Assembly: GCA_937969515.1 (NCBI GenBank) | Contig: CALBVX010000011.1 | Location: forward strand, 1 to 35,083 | Length of the DNA: 35,083 nucleotides | Direction of reading: 5' to 3' | Source of the DNA: an uncultured Croceitalea sp. | GTDB taxonomy: Bacteria; Bacteroidota; Bacteroidia; Flavobacteriales; Flavobacteriaceae | In this document: positions 944 to 27,702 of the stretch, in pieces | Layout: every line of letters begins with the position of its first letter | How positions within the stretch are numbered: position 1 is the first letter of the stretch | Notes under the pieces: model-generated | Database searches by the model: none | Seen by the model: the letters and a program-made list of their open reading frames with translations, nothing else | What the model was told of the DNA's origin: nothing | Translations under genes and position numbers: made by a program

Positions 944-3900
944 ATGAAACTATCTTTTAGGATACCAAAACCTGCTTTTCTTTTATTACTTTTAATACTC
1001 TGCTGTGTCGGTATAGCATCTGCACAAGAATACAATACTTTCGAAGTTAGATACCAGAGTAATTTAAGGGGTGACCTTACTTTTATTGGAAACAACATTC
1101 TTAATAGGGACAGCGGCACTAGTGGCGAAGGCCCGAACGATGCCTATAATAATCAGCGCAACAACAATAACGGCTCCACCAACAATGATAACAGCGGTTT
1201 TTACAATTACAATGATTTTAAAAATATGCAGTACATTGATGTAGATAGTGATCCATCTACATTTAGTTCAAGTACTTCAACATTTACATTTGAACAGGCC
1301 GATTGTAATTTAATTCGCTATGCCGGGCTATACTGGTCAGCAACATACCCCAGTGCAACAGCGAATGGCTCTTATAATAGTTCAGGCTATACCCCCAATA
1401 CCGTAGCTGTCGGAACGGGAAGAGAAACCGATTTTAACCAAGTGAAATTTAGGGTTCCTGGAGGGGCGTATGTAGATATTACTGCTGATGAAGTATTGTA
1501 CGACGGATTTAACAGTACCGATAATACTGTAAGACAAAACAGTCCGTATGCCTGTTATGCCGACGTGACTTCTATGATTACGGCATTAGCCAATCCCGAA
1601 GGAGATTATACCGTAGCAAACATCAGGGCAACAACTGGGGGCTTGACTCCTGGGGGCGGTTCAACCGGCGGTTGGACCCTTGTAATTGTTTATGAAAATC
1701 CAACAGTGACCGGTAAGTTTATAACAACTTTTGATGGTTTTGCCCGGGTAAACGGAACAAACACTATCGATATCGACTACAGTGGTTTTGAAACTATTCC
1801 TTCAGGACCTGTGGAAGCTGACTTAGGTGCCGCTACGCTTGAAGGGGATTTTAGAATAGATGGTGATGGTTTAAGCATTGAAGCCTCAAGCAATTCAGGT
1901 TTTACCGCAATAGGCAACGCCACCAATCCAACAGATAATTTCTTTAACAGTAATATTACCTTAGATGGGGTCGTAACTACCAATAGAAACCCAGCAAGTA
2001 CAAATACGCTGGGCTACGACACCGATATCTTCCGCCTAAATAATGCGGCCAACTCCATAATACCAAATGGTGAAACGGCAGCAACATTTCGGTTTTCTAC
2101 GGATGGAGACCAATATTATCCCTTCTTTAATTCCTTCAATGTTGAGGTTATTGAACCCAATATTGTTCTTGAGAAAAGGGTAGAAGATATTGCTGGAAAT
2201 GATATTACTGGCGCAGGTGTAAACCTGGGTCAATTTTTAGATTATGTACTCTCTTTTCAGAATATCGGAAATGATAATGCGACAAACTATACAATACGTG
2301 ATGTTTTACCGATTAATGTCACTCTTGATGAAACAAATCTAATCTTACCTGCTGGGGTTACCTATGTCTATACGCCAGCTACAAGAGAAATAACTTTTAC
2401 AATACCCAATAATTTAATCGAAGAAAACGATCCTGCCTCTAGCATTAGAATGCGGGTAAGGGTAGCTGAAAACTGTTTTGATTTTATTGATGCCTGTACT
2501 GATCAAATTCAAAATGTTGCGTTTTCTACATACCGAGGCCAAATCAATACGGCACAAATAACCGATGACCCCAGTGTTAACGATTTTGATTCATGTGGTT
2601 TTGTAAATGCAGGTGCAACTAACTTCTTGCTAGATGACTTGGATGCCTGTGATTTTTCAAGAACGGTTCAATTGTGCGGTGATAGTGTGGTACTTGATGC
2701 CGGTGATAATTTTGATGCCTATTTCTGGTATGTAGATGAAAATAATGACGGTCTAATTGATGCAGGTGACACCCTTATTTCGGGTGCTAATACAGATACC
2801 CTTCTAGTAACTGAAGTGGGGACATATATTGTTGACAAACAAGTTGCTGACCCCTGTAAAGGTTTTCAAGAAATCATAACCGTTACTTTGTTTGGCACAA
2901 CCCAAAGCAATCCGATAACAGCATTGATAAATGATACTTCCAACACTGTAGAAGGAGAAATCGTCGTTTGTCCGAATGACGGTGAAGAACTGCCGGAAAT
3001 ATTTCTTTGTGGACTTAATGACACTGAACTTATTCAAATTAATATCCCTGATGCAGATAGTATTGTTTGGGAGCAACTAGATGAGGCAAGCTGTTCTGCT
3101 GCTACTGAAGATTGTGCCAACAAAAACAATACCTGTACATGGAATACGGTCGAAACCGGAGGTGATTTTACAGCATCGGATGCCGGTCAGTATAGAGTGG
3201 TCATCAACTACGCCAACGGTTGTTTTTCAAGATTTTATTTTAACATCTTCAAAAACCCTCTCGACCCACAATTCAACAGCAGTGATATTATCTGTAATAC
3301 CCCTGGTAACATTACTGTCACCAATATGCCTTTAGACTATGAATTTCAACTTGTTGACGCTACCAATGATGCCGTTTTAGTGCCATATAGTGCCAATAAT
3401 GGTCCTAGTTTTGATATAGCGGCCAACGGTGCGTATCGCGTTGAAATGAGACAACAAGGTGTTGTAGATGGTTGTGTTTTTATACTTGACAACATAGGTA
3501 TTCTCGATAGAGATTTTCAAGTTGATGTTACAAGTAGAGACACAGATTGTAATGGTCTAGGTGAGATATCAATATCCGTACTTAATGTTGAGGCCCAATA
3601 TTATTATGAAATATCTCAAGGAGGAACATCCGTTGATACTTTTGGCCCATCTAACGACAATAATTATACCTTTGAAAACTTAAATGATGGCGTTTATGAT
3701 ATTCTTGTAACTACCGATGACGGCTGTAACTACACCGAACAAGTTACAATTAACGACCTTTCCGATTTAGATTTAACAGCAAGGGTTTCTCAACATATTA
3801 CGTGTAGAGAGGGTAATATTCAAATGGACTCCTCGGGAGGTCAAACACCTCATAATTATGCTATCTGGTCTTATGTTGATGATAACGGTGTCACTGTTAC

Positions 3901-21937: not shown

Positions 21938-23164
21938 TTAGGCATTGATTTTTTCAATGAGCGAATTTGCAATACGCTCAACGACCCCGACCACCAAGGC
22001 ATTACCCATAAAAAATGCTCTTTTGGTATCTGTAACACCTTCAAGCTTGGTGTGATTGTCAGGAAACATGTTAAGTCGCTCCAGTTCTATAGGAGTAAGC
22101 CTACGGAGGCCTTTATTTGTTTGTATTACATGTTTAAACCGCGAAGGCGACTTGCCGCCCTCTCCTGTAATTATTGTTCTAGAAGCTTTATCCAACGCAT
22201 CAGGAAAAACCATTGACCCTTCTGAGTAATTATAGGTAAAACCTTCTTTAGTTGTTCTTAATTCTTTTTTCCCTCCTTTTAAATATTCCCATTTAGGTAG
22301 TTCTGTTTCAGAAATGAAATAGTCTTCTGATACTTCGCCATTTTGTAAAATATCTGAAAGCAGGGTAAAATTACCATCATAGCTCGGAATGGTTTTTATG
22401 GTAGAAACTTTACCATCTATACAAACACCACTATTAAAAAAAGGAGATAATTTTTCACCTTTATTGAAGTTTTCAGAAATGTTTAGAATATCACCTTCAA
22501 GACTTAGATGGTTAAGTTCTGTGGTGCTTTGGGATACAGGAAAAACGTTGGCAAAAATGCCTTTTTCCAATAGGATACTTGCTGAACTTAAAGTATTATA
22601 GTTTGAAAGCAAAGATGAAGATTTATGGATACCCACAATAAAAACACGCCTTCTGCGCTGCGGCATACCGTATTCAGCGGCATTGATTACACGCCATTCA
22701 ACGGCATAATCTAAGTCGGACAAACTTTTTAACATAATGGCAAAATCCCTGCCCCGTTGAGCAGATGGTGATTTTAGTAAACGATCTACATTTTCGAGAA
22801 TCAGGTATTTTGGTTTATTTTTTTTCTCTGAAAGTATACGATGAATAGACCACCACAAAACCCCTTTTTTACCAAGCAAGCCTTTTGAGTTTTTTAATGT
22901 GGTAGCAACGGAATAGTCTTGACAAGGAAATCCACCCACTAAAACATCGTTATCAGGAATATCTTTAGAAAGTACTTTTTCGATATTTTGATTAGAATGG
23001 TTTTTTGAACCAAACCTGGCTTCGTAGACCAACGAAGCATGTTGGGTTTTGGTTGAAGGCTCCCATTGATTGCTCCAAACTACCTCAAAACCACCGGTTT
23101 TTTCTAGGCCTAATCGAAAACCCCCAACACCGGCAAAAAGTTCGCAAACTTTTAGTTTCTGCAT
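21938..23164 (-). CDS. DNA (cytosine-5-)-methyltransferase of a type II RM system
   Basis: Transfers a methyl group from S-adenosylmethionine to C5 of cytosine in a target site, protecting the host from the partner nuclease. 408 residues with the C5-methylase motifs in order: I 'FAGVGGFRLGLE' (10-21), IV 'GGFPCQDYS' with catalytic Cys81, VI 'ENVDRLL' (124-130), VIII 'QRRRRVFIVG' (169-178), a target-recognition region of about 180-345, IX 'RRLTPIELERLNMFPDNH', and X 'GNALVVGVVERIANSL' near the end. All key residues are present, so it should be active. No controller (C) gene is seen. A TATTTTTG box ends four bases before the ATG, so the transcript may be almost leaderless. Confidence 0.95.
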   Translation of the reverse strand: MQKLKVCELFAGVGGFRLGLEKTGGFEVVWSNQWEPSTKTQHASLVYEARFGSKNHSNQNIEKVLSKDIPDNDVLVGGFPCQDYSVATTLKNSKGLLGKKGVLWWSIHRILSEKKNKPKYLILENVDRLLKSPSAQRGRDFAIMLKSLSDLDYAVEWRVINAAEYGMPQRRRRVFIVGIHKSSSLLSNYNTLSSASILLEKGIFANVFPVSQSTTELNHLSLEGDILNISENFNKGEKLSPFFNSGVCIDGKVSTIKTIPSYDGNFTLLSDILQNGEVSEDYFISETELPKWEYLKGGKKELRTTKEGFTYNYSEGSMVFPDALDKASRTIITGEGGKSPSRFKHVIQTNKGLRRLTPIELERLNMFPDNHTKLEGVTDTKRAFFMGNALVVGVVERIANSLIEKINA

Positions 23165-23315: not shown

Positions 23316-24944
23316 CTACAACTCGAGGAAGGAATTGTACTTTTTAGAATCTTCTAAAAGTGCTGCCGCAGAAAGAATAGCATCATCATTTTTTAGATTA
23401 TAATCATAAAGACCATCTCGGTAGAAATAACGCTTTATAATTTCATCCTCTAATTTTTTGGTGATTTCTTTTTTATAGGTGTCCAGCGCTAGAATTTTCC
23501 CTCGGTTTACAGCAAGCAATAAGTCTTTGTACTTATCTTGAACATCTGAGCCCAAAAGGGAATCATCAGAATTCAGACTTTCTTCCAAAAGCTTTTCTGT
23601 CTTGGTCTTAAATGAAAAATCTTTGCTATTTGCAAAGCTCTTGAACTCGTTATAATGGTTTTCCGAGAACTTAAAATCAGCTACGCTGTTGAACTCATTT
23701 TTATAGTAGAAATCCGTAGCAAAATCAAAAATGATATTATTTCCCAACAAGGCATCTGTTAAGGAATTTGATTTTGATGATGCTATTTCAACATCGGGCA
23801 TTACGCCACCGCCGTCTTCAACCACTCTTCCATTTCTTGTTTTGAATTGATTGAATTCTGTTGTTCTCACCGCTTTGCCTTCTTCATCCCTATTCCAATA
23901 ATCCAAGGACTGAATACACCTTCCCGAAGGGGTATAATAGCGAGAAATGGTAACTTTTAACTGAGTTCCATAGGTAAGTTTTAAAGGCCTTTGCACCAGA
24001 CCTTTTCCAAAACTGCGCGCCCCCATAACTACTGCACGATCTAAATCTTGTAGACTTCCCGAAACAATTTCACTTGCCGATGCACTTCTTCCATTTACCA
24101 GAACTACTAGCGGAATAGCTAAATCTTCAGCCTTATTTTTTGTTTTATAGGTTTGATTGAATTTTTTTACCTTGGATTTTGTAGTAACAATCAACTCTCC
24201 CTTTGGCACAAATAAATTGGTAACATTTATAGCTTCAGAGAGCAAGCCACCAGGATTACCTCTTAAATCTAAAATAATTTGAGTCGCCCCCTGGCCTTTT
24301 AAATCTTGTAGAGCTGATTTGGTTTGGCTAGAGGCCTTTCTATTGAATTTGGCTAAAACGATGTAACCGGTTTTATCATCTACCATATTGTAGTAGGGCA
24401 CAGCATCGACCTCTACACCTTCACGGGTAATAGTTGTTGTTTTAGTTGCACCTTGTCTTTTAAAAGTGACAGCTACACTGCTATTGTTGGCCCCTTTTAA
24501 TAACTCGCTTGCATTATCTTCAAAATCGGCAACGGCAATTTCTCCTATTTTGATGATCTCGTCTCCAGCTTTAAGTCCGGCCTTATCTGCAGGGTAATCT
24601 TTATAAGGCTCTACTACGACCAATTTGTCTTTATACGAACGAACAAGGGCACCGATACCTGAATATTCACCGGCATTATTAATTTTGTATTCTTCAACAT
24701 CTTGTTCATTTAAGAATTTGGTGTAGGGATCAAGCTCTTCCAGCATATTCTTAATTGCAGAATCCATTAATTCACCGGGGTTCGTCTCATCTACATAATT
24801 CATGTTCAATTCTTTGAACAGTGTGGTGAAAATTTCAATTTGTTTAGCTATTTCAAAAAAGTCGCTTTTAAAACTAGTTCCTGCAACTAAAAAAACAACG
24901 GCAAAAACCGGAATCAACAATTGTTTTTTATAAAATTTTTTCAT
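23316..24944 (-). CDS. S41-family C-terminal processing peptidase
   Basis: Periplasmic serine protease of the Tsp/CtpA type that cleaves protein C-termini. 542 residues: N-terminal signal or anchor segment (about 8-25), a helical region, a PDZ domain (about 85-175; 'GEYSGIGALVR', 'PADKAGLKAGDEIIKI'), and the S41 catalytic domain with 'ILDLRGNPGGLL' (about 224-235), the catalytic Ser289 in 'NGRSASASEI' and Lys314 in 'SFGKGLVQ'. The 25-residue Ser-Lys spacing matches that of E. coli Tsp. A charged helical tail of about 150 residues follows. The start overlaps the end of the rnpA fusion gene by 17 bases, so the two are co-transcribed and probably translationally coupled. Confidence 0.93.
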   Translation of the reverse strand: MKKFYKKQLLIPVFAVVFLVAGTSFKSDFFEIAKQIEIFTTLFKELNMNYVDETNPGELMDSAIKNMLEELDPYTKFLNEQDVEEYKINNAGEYSGIGALVRSYKDKLVVVEPYKDYPADKAGLKAGDEIIKIGEIAVADFEDNASELLKGANNSSVAVTFKRQGATKTTTITREGVEVDAVPYYNMVDDKTGYIVLAKFNRKASSQTKSALQDLKGQGATQIILDLRGNPGGLLSEAINVTNLFVPKGELIVTTKSKVKKFNQTYKTKNKAEDLAIPLVVLVNGRSASASEIVSGSLQDLDRAVVMGARSFGKGLVQRPLKLTYGTQLKVTISRYYTPSGRCIQSLDYWNRDEEGKAVRTTEFNQFKTRNGRVVEDGGGVMPDVEIASSKSNSLTDALLGNNIIFDFATDFYYKNEFNSVADFKFSENHYNEFKSFANSKDFSFKTKTEKLLEESLNSDDSLLGSDVQDKYKDLLLAVNRGKILALDTYKKEITKKLEDEIIKRYFYRDGLYDYNLKNDDAILSAAALLEDSKKYNSFLEL

Positions 24945-25725
24945 GAAGTACGGTTTCTTTAAATTTTTTCAATAGCCCTTTCATTTTCGTATCAACAAAG
25001 TCATACGTGGGCATTTCTTTTCCAAGATATAAAATCATGAACGCAAAATCTCCCTCAATGTTGTTAAAAACGAGATGCTTGTTTAAGCGATATGCCTCTC
25101 GCAGTAATCGCTTAATGCGATTTCTTTGTACTGCTTTTTTAAAGCTTTTTTTTGGAGCGATAACACCTGTTTTTATATGGCTGTTATCTTCAAAGTCAGT
25201 TTTAAGGTAAATGAGCTTTAGAGGGAAGTTGTTTATACTTTTTCCTTCGACAAAAAGTTGCTCAATCAGCTTTTTGCTTTTAAGTTTTTCTTTTTTTGAA
25301 AAGAAAGAGTCAATAGGATTGTCCCCTTGAGGGGACTTTAGAGATGTCTTTTTAATGTTTTCTTTTGAATGCTGATTAATAATTTCTTCTAATGACAATA
25401 ATACATTAAACATATTTTTTTTGACATCAAAATCAGAAAACCGGATGAACACGACACCTCTTTTTTCTAATTCGCCTTGTCTTTTCGAATCATACTCATA
25501 TTGGTATTGGTGCGAATTACCATCAATTTCAATAGCTAGCCTAAGTTCATGACAGTAAAAATCAACAATATATTCTAATAGAGGAACTTGTCTATGGAAA
25601 TGAACCTTAAAATTACGGTTCTTTATTTTTTCCCAAAGCAAAACCTCCGAAAGGGTGCTATTTTTTCGCAATACCCTCGCGTATTCTTTTAGTTTAGGAT
25701 TATAAGGTATTATGTCATTTCTCAT
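24928..25725 (-). CDS. rnpA: DUF559 endonuclease-like domain fused to ribonuclease P protein component
   Basis: 265 residues in two parts. Residues 1-118 are a DUF559 (Vsr-like, PD-(D/E)XK superfamily) domain: 'YARVLRKNSTLSEVLLWEKI', 'YIVDFYCHELRLAIEIDGNSH' with Asp55, Glu66 and Asp68, and 'RQGELEKRGVVFIRFSDFDV'. Residues 139-265 are a complete RNase P protein: 'FSKKEKLKSKKLIEQLFVEG', 'KTGVIAPKKSFKKAVQ' and the signature 'RNRIKRLLREAYR' (201-213); it assists the RNase P RNA in 5' maturation of tRNA. Typical RnpA is 110-130 residues and begins close to residue 139, where no ATG, GTG or TTG is seen; the nearest in-frame ATG upstream is Met105, inside DUF559. The linker (127-137) is the translated left inverted repeat of a 444-base unit. 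RnpA overlaps the S41 gene by 17 bases. The fusion is seen directly; whether the domain is cleaved off or active is unknown. Confidence 0.9.
   Translation of the reverse strand: MRNDIIPYNPKLKEYARVLRKNSTLSEVLLWEKIKNRNFKVHFHRQVPLLEYIVDFYCHELRLAIEIDGNSHQYQYEYDSKRQGELEKRGVVFIRFSDFDVKKNMFNVLLSLEEIINQHSKENIKKTSLKSPQGDNPIDSFFSKKEKLKSKKLIEQLFVEGKSINNFPLKLIYLKTDFEDNSHIKTGVIAPKKSFKKAVQRNRIKRLLREAYRLNKHLVFNNIEGDFAFMILYLGKEMPTYDFVDTKMKGLLKKFKETVLHEKIL
25317..25346 (+). repeat. Left inverted repeat of the DUF559 unit
   Basis: 30 bases whose reverse complement matches 25731-25760 at 25 of 30 positions, all five differences being transitions. It contains an internal hairpin, GTCCCC-TTGA-GGGGAC (25321-25336). 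It lies inside the fused gene and codes for the linker between the DUF559 and RnpA parts. Confidence 0.8.
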
Positions 25726-25730
25726 TTTAA

Positions 25731-25760
25731 CACCCCTAAGGCCCCCTCAAGAGGACAATC
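25731..25760 (+). repeat. Right inverted repeat of the DUF559 unit
   Basis: Partner of 25317-25346 (25 of 30 positions match in inverted orientation). It sits directly upstream of the DUF559 start codon (25723-25725), so the promoter or leader of the fused gene must lie in or beyond it. No exact TAnnTTTG box is seen between it and the terminator at 25792. Confidence 0.8.
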
Positions 25761-25845: not shown

Positions 25846-27702
25846 TTAGTTAGCCTGAAAGATATTATTATTTTGATCTACATCGGCCATCAGTTTTGAT
25901 GGGTCTACGACTATGCCTACAATATTTTCAATGGGCTTATCAATAATCATTTCGTATGTATTACTGGCCCATGCCCAATCGTCAAGAACGGTTCTTTTTA
26001 AAGAGGGATACGGATTTTCTTTTTCACCACGCATCATACGCAAAGGAACATAATAGGTTTCTTGATTTCCGTTAGAATCTACCACTAAAATATCCAAGGG
26101 CATTGGCATTAGTCCGATACGCTCAAGAACGATTTTGGTTTTTCCTTCGTCAGCCACCACCTCTTTTATTCCATAATCGATGGTATTTGTGGTTTGCGTC
26201 CAATCTGTTAAATACCAATCAAGCTCTATTCCGGATACTTTTTCAGCAGTTCTTTTAATATCATTAGGAACAGGATGCTTGAACTTAAAATCCTCATAAT
26301 ATTTACGAACTGTTTCCATTAATTTATCTTGACCAATAACGTAACCAAGTTGAGATAAAAAGATAGCTCCTTTACTATATGCCGCTATTCCGTAAGGCGT
26401 ATTTTCGTTGTACCTGTCTGCATGGGTGCTTTGTGGTTGTTCTTTGCCAGAATTTACTAAATAATAATATCCTTTATAAGATCCTTCAAAAGGATTTTCT
26501 TTGTTTTTCCCCAATATTTCATTGCTACAAAGGGCAGAGATAAAAGAGGTAAAACCTTCATCCATCCATTCATGCTTGGCTTCGTTGGTAGCCAAAACAT
26601 GCTGGAACCAAGAGTGGGCCAATTCATGGATCATGGTACCAACGACACTGCCGGGTTTGTCTCCACCGGTAATAAGTGTTGACATGGCATATTCCATGCC
26701 GCCATCACCACCTTGTATTACAGAGTATTGCTTATATGGATATTCTCCAATGTTTTTATTAAAGAAGTTCACGGCCTTGGCCGTAAGCGGTTGTACTTTT
26801 TCCCACGTTTCCTTGAACTTTTCATCGTTTTTATATAAAAAATGCAGTGTTGGACCGTTTTCCATTTGTAAGGTGTCATGCACATATTCTGGGTCAGCAG
26901 CCCACATAAAATCATGCACCATAGGTGCTTTAAAGTGCCAAGTCAGCGTTTTGCCTTTTGTTTTCACCTTGGTTCCCGGCGTTTCATAACCATGACCAAT
27001 TTCATTTGGGTTTTGTAAATAGCCCGTACCCCCAACAGTGTAGTTTTTATCAATTGTAAGTTTTACATCGAAATCGCCCCATACCCCATGAAATTCGCGG
27101 GCGATGTAAGCGTCTGCATGCCAACCTTCAATATCATATTCTGCCAATTTTGGATACCATTGACTCATAGAAAGCGCAACACCATCTTTGTTGTTGCGAC
27201 CAGACCTACGTATTTGAACGGGCACTTGGCCTTTGAACTCCATGTCAAAAGTAGTTTTACCTCCAGAAGGAATAGGTTTTGCCAAATCAACGACTAGCAC
27301 AGTACCTTCTTCGCTAAAATCTACAACTTCGCCATCTTGCAGCAAAGAGGTAGCATGCAAATACCCAATTTCCGAAGGAGATAAAGCAGCAATTCTACTC
27401 TTTTTGTCCGCGGTGACCATTCTGCCATCAGGATCGGCAATATTTTGCAAGCGCATGTCCATCTCGCTACCAGGCTGAAAAGCGTTAAAGTACAGGTGAA
27501 AGTATACACGGCTTAATTTATCAGGCGAGTTATTTGTGTAAACTAATTTTTGAGTTCCAGTATATTGATAATTTTCAACATCCATCTCAACATCCATGGT
27601 ATAATCAACATGTTGCTGCCAATACCCGGTATTGTTTTGGGCAATAAGCGATGTTAATCCACATAAAAGGATAAAGACAATTTTCTTAGCTAGTTTGACC
27701 AT
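25846..27702 (-). CDS. M1-family zinc metallopeptidase (aminopeptidase-like)
   Basis: 618 residues with a signal peptide (MVKLAKKIVFILLCGLTSLIAQ, about 1-22), so probably periplasmic or surface exposed. It shows the gluzincin zinc site 'HELAHSWFQH' at 359-368 with the third ligand Glu382 in 'EWMDEGFTSF', exactly 18 residues after the second His. A 'GGMEYA' motif just before it corresponds to the GxMEN exopeptidase motif of M1 enzymes. The N-terminal domain is the beta-sandwich type ('YTGTQKLVYTNNSPD', 'VYFHLYFNAF'). It should remove N-terminal amino acids from peptides. It starts one base after the stop of the S8 protease gene, which implies one operon with coupled translation. Confidence 0.93.
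   Translation of the reverse strand: MVKLAKKIVFILLCGLTSLIAQNNTGYWQQHVDYTMDVEMDVENYQYTGTQKLVYTNNSPDKLSRVYFHLYFNAFQPGSEMDMRLQNIADPDGRMVTADKKSRIAALSPSEIGYLHATSLLQDGEVVDFSEEGTVLVVDLAKPIPSGGKTTFDMEFKGQVPVQIRRSGRNNKDGVALSMSQWYPKLAEYDIEGWHADAYIAREFHGVWGDFDVKLTIDKNYTVGGTGYLQNPNEIGHGYETPGTKVKTKGKTLTWHFKAPMVHDFMWAADPEYVHDTLQMENGPTLHFLYKNDEKFKETWEKVQPLTAKAVNFFNKNIGEYPYKQYSVIQGGDGGMEYAMSTLITGGDKPGSVVGTMIHELAHSWFQHVLATNEAKHEWMDEGFTSFISALCSNEILGKNKENPFEGSYKGYYYLVNSGKEQPQSTHADRYNENTPYGIAAYSKGAIFLSQLGYVIGQDKLMETVRKYYEDFKFKHPVPNDIKRTAEKVSGIELDWYLTDWTQTTNTIDYGIKEVVADEGKTKIVLERIGLMPMPLDILVVDSNGNQETYYVPLRMMRGEKENPYPSLKRTVLDDWAWASNTYEMIIDKPIENIVGIVVDPSKLMADVDQNNNIFQAN

Follow-up and report, generated by a model that had tools for sequence, protein, structure and literature searches.

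The window analysed here is a 35,083 nt stretch of DNA from an uncultured Croceitalea sp. of the Flavobacteriaceae (assembly GCA_937969515.1, contig CALBVX010000011.1, positions 1 to 35,083), in which the RNase P protein, RnpA, is encoded as the second half of a frame whose first half is a DUF559 nuclease-like domain. The DUF559 half is enclosed by two hairpin repeats. The features are given below as positions in the window; L and G numbers in the text are our own labels for loci and genomes.

24928-25725, minus strand: DUF559-RnpA fusion frame, 265 aa with an ATG start, from open reading frame analysis
25387-25695, minus strand: DUF559 nuclease-like domain (aa 11-113), from Pfam; predicted fold like 3hrl, I-Bth0305I and Vsr
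24961-25302, minus strand: RNase P protein domain (aa 142-255) with the RNRIKR motif, from Pfam
25411-25413, minus strand: ATG of Met105, candidate internal start for a short RnpA, with 10 A in the preceding 25 nt
25312-25314, minus strand: ATT codon (Ile138) at the position of the rnpA ATG of relatives, from alignment by eye
25730-25760, no strand: left (5') hairpin repeat arm, directly upstream of the DUF559 start codon, from the repeat search
25317-25347, no strand: right (3') hairpin repeat arm, translated in frame as TSLKSPQGDN, from the repeat search
23316-24944, minus strand: downstream open reading frame overlapping the rnpA end, which we take from its sequence to be an S41-type peptidase gene; synteny anchor
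25846-27702, minus strand: upstream open reading frame, presumably an M1-type peptidase gene by sequence; synteny anchor in the loci of relatives

The fusion proposed in an earlier, sequence-only reading of this DNA is real. The frame runs through 265 codons from ATG to stop with no internal stop, and both halves lie well above their Pfam cut-offs (95.1 bits against 20.6 for DUF559, 69.3 against 22.3 for Ribonuclease_P); the second half carries both the full-length Ribonuclease_P match and the RNR motif. The acidic residues named in that reading hold up, with Asp55 in 85 of the 85 DUF559 sequences compared, Glu66 in 83 and Asp68 in 84, and so does its statement that a start codon is missing at the usual RnpA start, where ATT replaces the ATG of relatives. 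The in-frame starts 5' of the RnpA core are ATG1, two TTGs, one GTG, ATG105 and TTG110; neither ATG, GTG nor TTG occurs in the window frame after Leu110 and before the core. Met105 is not universal, as L178 has CTA at the equivalent codon. The claim that this is the only rnpA stands for the assembly, which also encodes the RNase P RNA, but a second copy in the genome is not disproven since the assembly is 54% complete.

In several genera the architecture recurs at the corresponding syntenic position. Scanning one genome per species among the best 80 of 470 confirmed relatives, we found full-length DUF559-RnpA frames in records of Croceitalea, Flagellimonas/[Muricauda]/Allomuricauda, Maribacter and Croceivirga, those of Croceitalea, Maribacter and Croceivirga being metagenome-assembled genomes. 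The M1-type peptidase gene lies upstream in every fused locus examined, and the long downstream frame, taken as the S41-type peptidase gene, was compared in six Flagellimonas loci. Within the window's GTDB genus (8 genomes) a second fusion is present in G300, its protein identical to that of the Croceitalea record; the other six genomes have an ordinary rnpA, and in five of them only 75-78 nt lie between the upstream gene and the RnpA core. Flagellimonas, the genus of F. marinaquae, has the intact fusion in 9 of 71 genomes, which are partly related by descent and of which five hold the same loci as the named records L083-L087. No second rnpA was found in any of these nine genomes (94-100% complete). 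Their other DUF559 copies, where present, are at most 51% identical to the query, and copies at the rnpA site are 67-100% identical between Flagellimonas species. Among the matches listed for 397 genomes of the family, and in 395 genomes of the class, the window genome gave the sole full-length match, thus the architecture is rare outside this group. Two genomes with long rnpA frames in a first family survey (G018 and G193) had no DUF559 fusion among their listed frames. We found no published description of DUF559-RnpA in the one paper collection searched, where papers on RNase P fusions were judged by title or abstract opening.

The earlier reading had also named a sequencing error hiding a stop or frameshift as a route to a false fusion. 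The window assembly is fragmented as well as incomplete, which would favour such an artefact. However, full-length fusions occur in named isolates and in nine genomes of another genus, so a sequencing error in the window is excluded, and we give an artefact of any kind next to no credence.

The hairpin repeats were missed by the sequence-only reading. The inverted arms are 31 nt long and 84% complementary, and both contain the hairpin CCCCTTGAGGGG or a one-base variant of it; with at most three mismatches this pattern has two matches in the window and none in 100 shuffles. As the right repeat is open in frame, the DUF559 frame runs on into RnpA, making the fusion. Among relatives this repeat is read in two frames, (T)PLKSPQGDN-like in the window, most Flagellimonas and Maribacter, and TPKVPSRG-like in G300 and L180/L086, which suggests that the junction arose more than once.

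Such repeats accompany DUF559 well beyond rnpA. We scored the 23 loci with the top matches to the window DUF559 in the family, and the inverted repeats in 16 of them score higher than any of 30 rnpA control loci or 115 shuffles (best score 14 in both cases). L063 had been removed from this set beforehand; it was listed as a DUF559 tail followed by RnpA and is really an rnpA frame preceded by peptidase-gene sequence. A larger set of 93 loci, less 4 without a motif, gave a score of at least 14.5 in 59 of 89 rows, 14 of the 89 being repeats of loci already included. Of these 59 DUF559 frames, 38 end ahead of the right repeat, 5 inside it and 16 past it.

The same module is also joined to other proteins. 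At 12 loci, 11 of them titled Winogradskyella, DUF559 is joined in frame through a translated hairpin to a pyridoxal phosphate (PLP)-dependent lyase (L090-L095, L097-L100, L103 and L106, with DUF559 at 3001 onward; Pfam was run for L090 and for L057, which is the same locus as L103). Single fusions to CutC (L134:384-1493) and to QueG (L273:151-1638) have hairpin-like translated linkers. A DUF559-ThiG fusion had been suspected from long frames in G536 and G689; by coordinates thiG is in another frame. In the DUF559 tree the lyase-fused copies form a group of their own, while the RnpA-fused copies fall in two groups near the base with L089 elsewhere (modest support).

Solo copies of the repeat are dispersed in the genomes. 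Three more sites lie on other contigs of the window genome, apparently intergenic by eye, with none for the reversed control, and a strict pattern gave 193 sites in 28 of 249 family genomes and none when reversed. These dispersed repeats suggest that transposition-like spread also occurs. The hairpin repeats could then be a transposon- or REP-like (repetitive extragenic palindromic) mobile unit with DUF559 as its dedicated nuclease, moved by transposition and ordinary recombination and not by homing, and the rnpA fusion an in-frame insertion that arose by chance and stayed since the host gene had lost its own start. Besides the 193 family sites and the three in the window's own genome, this explanation draws on the enrichment of dispersed repeats together with DUF559, as they are found in 12 of the 16 genomes where a window-like DUF559 was among the matches listed and in 16 of the 233 others. 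That association, however, counts DUF559 genomes only as far as they were among those matches. Further, the same target recurs, a transferred block (described below) carries short host flanks on both sides, and no consistent target-site duplication was seen by eye across the fused loci. We regard this explanation as rather unlikely.

The repeats also form other arrangements. In G134 they stand in near-regular tandem runs about 100-210 bp apart, and in G138 in dense clusters. In L050, from a sister genome without the fusion, the space between the M1 peptidase gene and rnpA holds palindromic repeats of another kind (CGTC-like by eye); such a class is described in a part of PMC3733652.

A structure model is fairly confident for the DUF559 part, with block means of the predicted local distance difference test (pLDDT) of 79-89 for residues 11-120, except for 53 in residues 71-80; in the RnpA half, from residue 121 on, the block means drop to 31-67, and this poor part was not interpreted. 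The nearest solved structure to the modelled domain is 3hrl, an endonuclease-like protein (Z 14.0), which it also matches in sequence (1e-16). It further resembles the catalytic domain of I-Bth0305I (3r3p; Z 11.4, root-mean-square deviation 2.1 over 94 residues, 20% identity) and Vsr (1cw0; Z 9.0), and on this model the domain is predicted to have a Vsr-like PD-(D/E)XK catalytic fold. E27, D55, E66, D68 and H72 are invariant in 12 of the 12 distinct RnpA-fused copies. DUF559 is under purifying selection, with ratios of nonsynonymous to synonymous change (dN/dS) of 0.03-0.16 in those pairs that differ enough. A search of the window between 23000 and 28000 gave no intron family, and no intein domain is among the Pfam matches of the fusion. 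A section on Thermosynechococcus inteins in PMC9403480 assigns a DUF559-containing gene to the EDxHD homing family, and EDxHD and I-Bth0305I are counted among the homing endonucleases in a part of PMC3943268.

In one species pair the element has been replaced horizontally at the rnpA site. The two Flagellimonas species concerned (L175 and L176) differ at 2 positions of a 573 bp block, in a locus that is elsewhere about 85% identical; the block starts about 55 bp ahead of the left hairpin stem and ends 32 bp beyond the right one. Synonymous differences between the two species amount to 1/71 for DUF559, while three host genes pooled have 375/673 (one-sided Fisher p=3.7e-22). Such a block is a footprint that would be expected of homing. 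In all 15 pairs among six fused Flagellimonas loci, which are non-independent, the synonymous divergence of DUF559 is lower than that of the pooled host genes (p 5e-3 to 4e-22). A comparable case is found at the lyase site, where L091 and L097 have about 97% identity over the upstream DNA and the greater part of the lyase gene but 71-87% across the element, with one comparison segment mostly gapped. The L091 element is instead close to that of L094 (synonymous divergence 0.14, whereas the lyase has 0.45; p=3e-6). Copying into the same site with short flanks is thus found at L175/L176 and at L091/L094/L097, and we infer homing as its mechanism.

In some marine bacteria, related species show stages from the intact insertion to a decayed remnant. 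By strict criteria the 71 Flagellimonas genomes divide into 9 with the intact fusion, 14 with a translated-repeat scar, 4 with the hairpin only and 44 with no strict trace; such hairpins were found in 3 of 1420 shuffled intergenic sequences, and some of the 44 traceless loci resemble scars by eye. The 14 scar genomes have no intact DUF559, and the repeat is translated in an N-terminal extension of RnpA, though that of L221 may be untranslated. One locus that was fetched twice (L149/L184) has a frameshifted DUF559 gene with part of the catalytic stretch missing, and its RnpA frame opens just before the Met105 equivalent. In Flagellimonas, RnpA frames that follow a broken DUF559 begin no more than a few codons from this position or just after it, and other loci retain some 20-25 residues ahead of the RnpA core, such as MLEENTDSKKTDAPLKSPQGD in L183. 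L181 (G433) has about 1.3 kb of extra DNA between the DUF559 pieces and the RnpA frame, perhaps a further insertion. On a tree built from the M1-peptidase end and RnpA (82 tips; five duplicate loci removed, L086 retained although equal to L180) the intact fusion requires 10 changes and any trace 8, against at least 20 changes for any trace when the labels were shuffled 500 times.

As other species have only a broken DUF559 or a scar, the domain is dispensable and RnpA can start internally. An internal start at Met105 or later, one of the routes suggested in the sequence-only reading, is hence a workable one, and RnpA tolerates a short foreign N-terminus. The suggestion that the element would be hard to lose is only partly borne out, as DUF559 has often been lost while many of the losers retain a translated scar.

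We also considered that RNase P gains a new activity or mode of regulation from DUF559, which host selection would then maintain. The conserved catalytic residues of the 12 fused copies and the low dN/dS would fit this, but many close relatives whose RnpA is intact have lost DUF559 or hold it in broken form, it was exchanged independently of RnpA at L175/L176, and the same module is fused to the unrelated lyase, CutC and QueG; we find such a functional fusion improbable. The related idea of a nuclease delivered to RNase P is unsupported, as DUF559 has been lost repeatedly and has a history separate from that of RnpA in at least one species pair.

The DUF559-RnpA fusion is best understood as a phase that a homing-like DUF559 element passes through. 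DUF559 would be the nuclease gene of a small (about 444 bp) selfish element between inverted hairpin repeats, and the nuclease would cut target alleles, here the rnpA start, that lack the element. Repair from an occupied copy would carry over the element and a little flanking DNA. The element would then sit at the gene start in place of the usual rnpA start, with a frame reading through the right repeat into RnpA, which may be made as a fusion or from an internal start near the DUF559 end. Later the nuclease would decay or be deleted, and the translated repeat could persist as an N-terminal scar on RnpA. The earlier proposal of an accessory element tied to an essential gene is supported in this respect, the repeat-bounded mobile element being fused to rnpA.

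Several results weigh against this reading. DUF559 is about as divergent as RnpA in several rnpA pairs (0.55 vs 0.53 for L173/L177), which lowered our confidence slightly. At the lyase site it is less divergent than the lyase at synonymous sites in 8 of 66 pairs (1 significant at 0.01) and significantly more divergent in 14 of 66, so most pairs there look vertical or show higher DUF559 divergence; a rule that DUF559 is always less divergent than its partner fails at this site and in some rnpA pairs. The strong transfer signal comes from one rnpA species pair and one lyase-site trio, and the DUF559 tree is compatible with one clade for the Flagellimonas copies (approximately unbiased test, p=0.21), hence we do not claim that the element passed from genus to genus. 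The block could also be moved by ordinary homologous recombination, with no nuclease involved, and the dispersed solo repeats suggest transposition as well, as for REP elements, though with a nuclease of another kind. With these points taken in, we lean towards the DUF559 half as a homing-type nuclease element that lodges at gene starts with no intron or intein and takes control of their translation; cleavage of DNA by DUF559 and the start codon in use are predicted parts of it. For the wider proposal we would put the chances at about even, namely that this is a new kind of parasite which homes, with no intron or intein, into the very beginning of genes, some of them essential. It would provide the start codon and be read through its terminal hairpin into the host gene, so that the host protein is made only through the parasite or from an inner start, and its rounds of entry and decay would leave translated hairpin scars as new N-terminal extensions, here of RNase P.

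Of the other genes near the locus, one just beyond the S41-type peptidase gene (21938-23164, minus strand) is by its sequence presumably DNA cytosine methyltransferase-like, and we take a gene on another contig of the window genome (L003) to be Vsr-like.

Homing endonucleases in conserved genes are described in a part of PMC3943268 as persisting largely by association with self-splicing introns or inteins. If our reading is true, there is another route to persistence, by joining the target protein at its start so that expression runs through the parasite. It would also give a DUF559 lineage a likely function, that of a homing-type nuclease tied to a hairpin repeat family, and the loci would be natural intermediates of an essential gene gaining, carrying and shedding a selfish domain, leaving new protein sequence behind.

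Compared with known systems, the element shares the catalytic-domain fold of the EDxHD (Vsr-like) homing endonucleases, as modelled against I-Bth0305I, and in two cases their pattern of site-specific horizontal replacement. It differs from them as no intron or intein was found at the locus (their usual residence, not needed by free-standing members), and as DUF559 is fused in frame to the N-terminus of the target protein and flanked by hairpins, with cleavage here being predicted. Rickettsial palindromic elements are likewise palindromic DNA translated in frame inside host proteins; they are not known to carry a nuclease gene, whereas here the palindrome forms the terminus of an element coding for a nuclease. 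The free-standing homing endonucleases of T4-type phages move into their cognate site with short co-transferred flanks, like the element here, and they too have no self-splicing shelter. Those named in a part of PMC3943268 are, however, free-standing frames of a phage genome, while the frame here continues into a cellular gene that is essential. REP elements with their REP-associated tyrosine transposases (RAYT), as presented in a part of Di Nocera et al. 2013 (PMC3733652), are likewise short hairpins, dispersed and standing in inverted orientation on both sides of a nuclease gene, but DUF559 is a Vsr-like nuclease and not a tyrosine (HUH) transposase, and the repeat described here carries no terminal GTAG tag.
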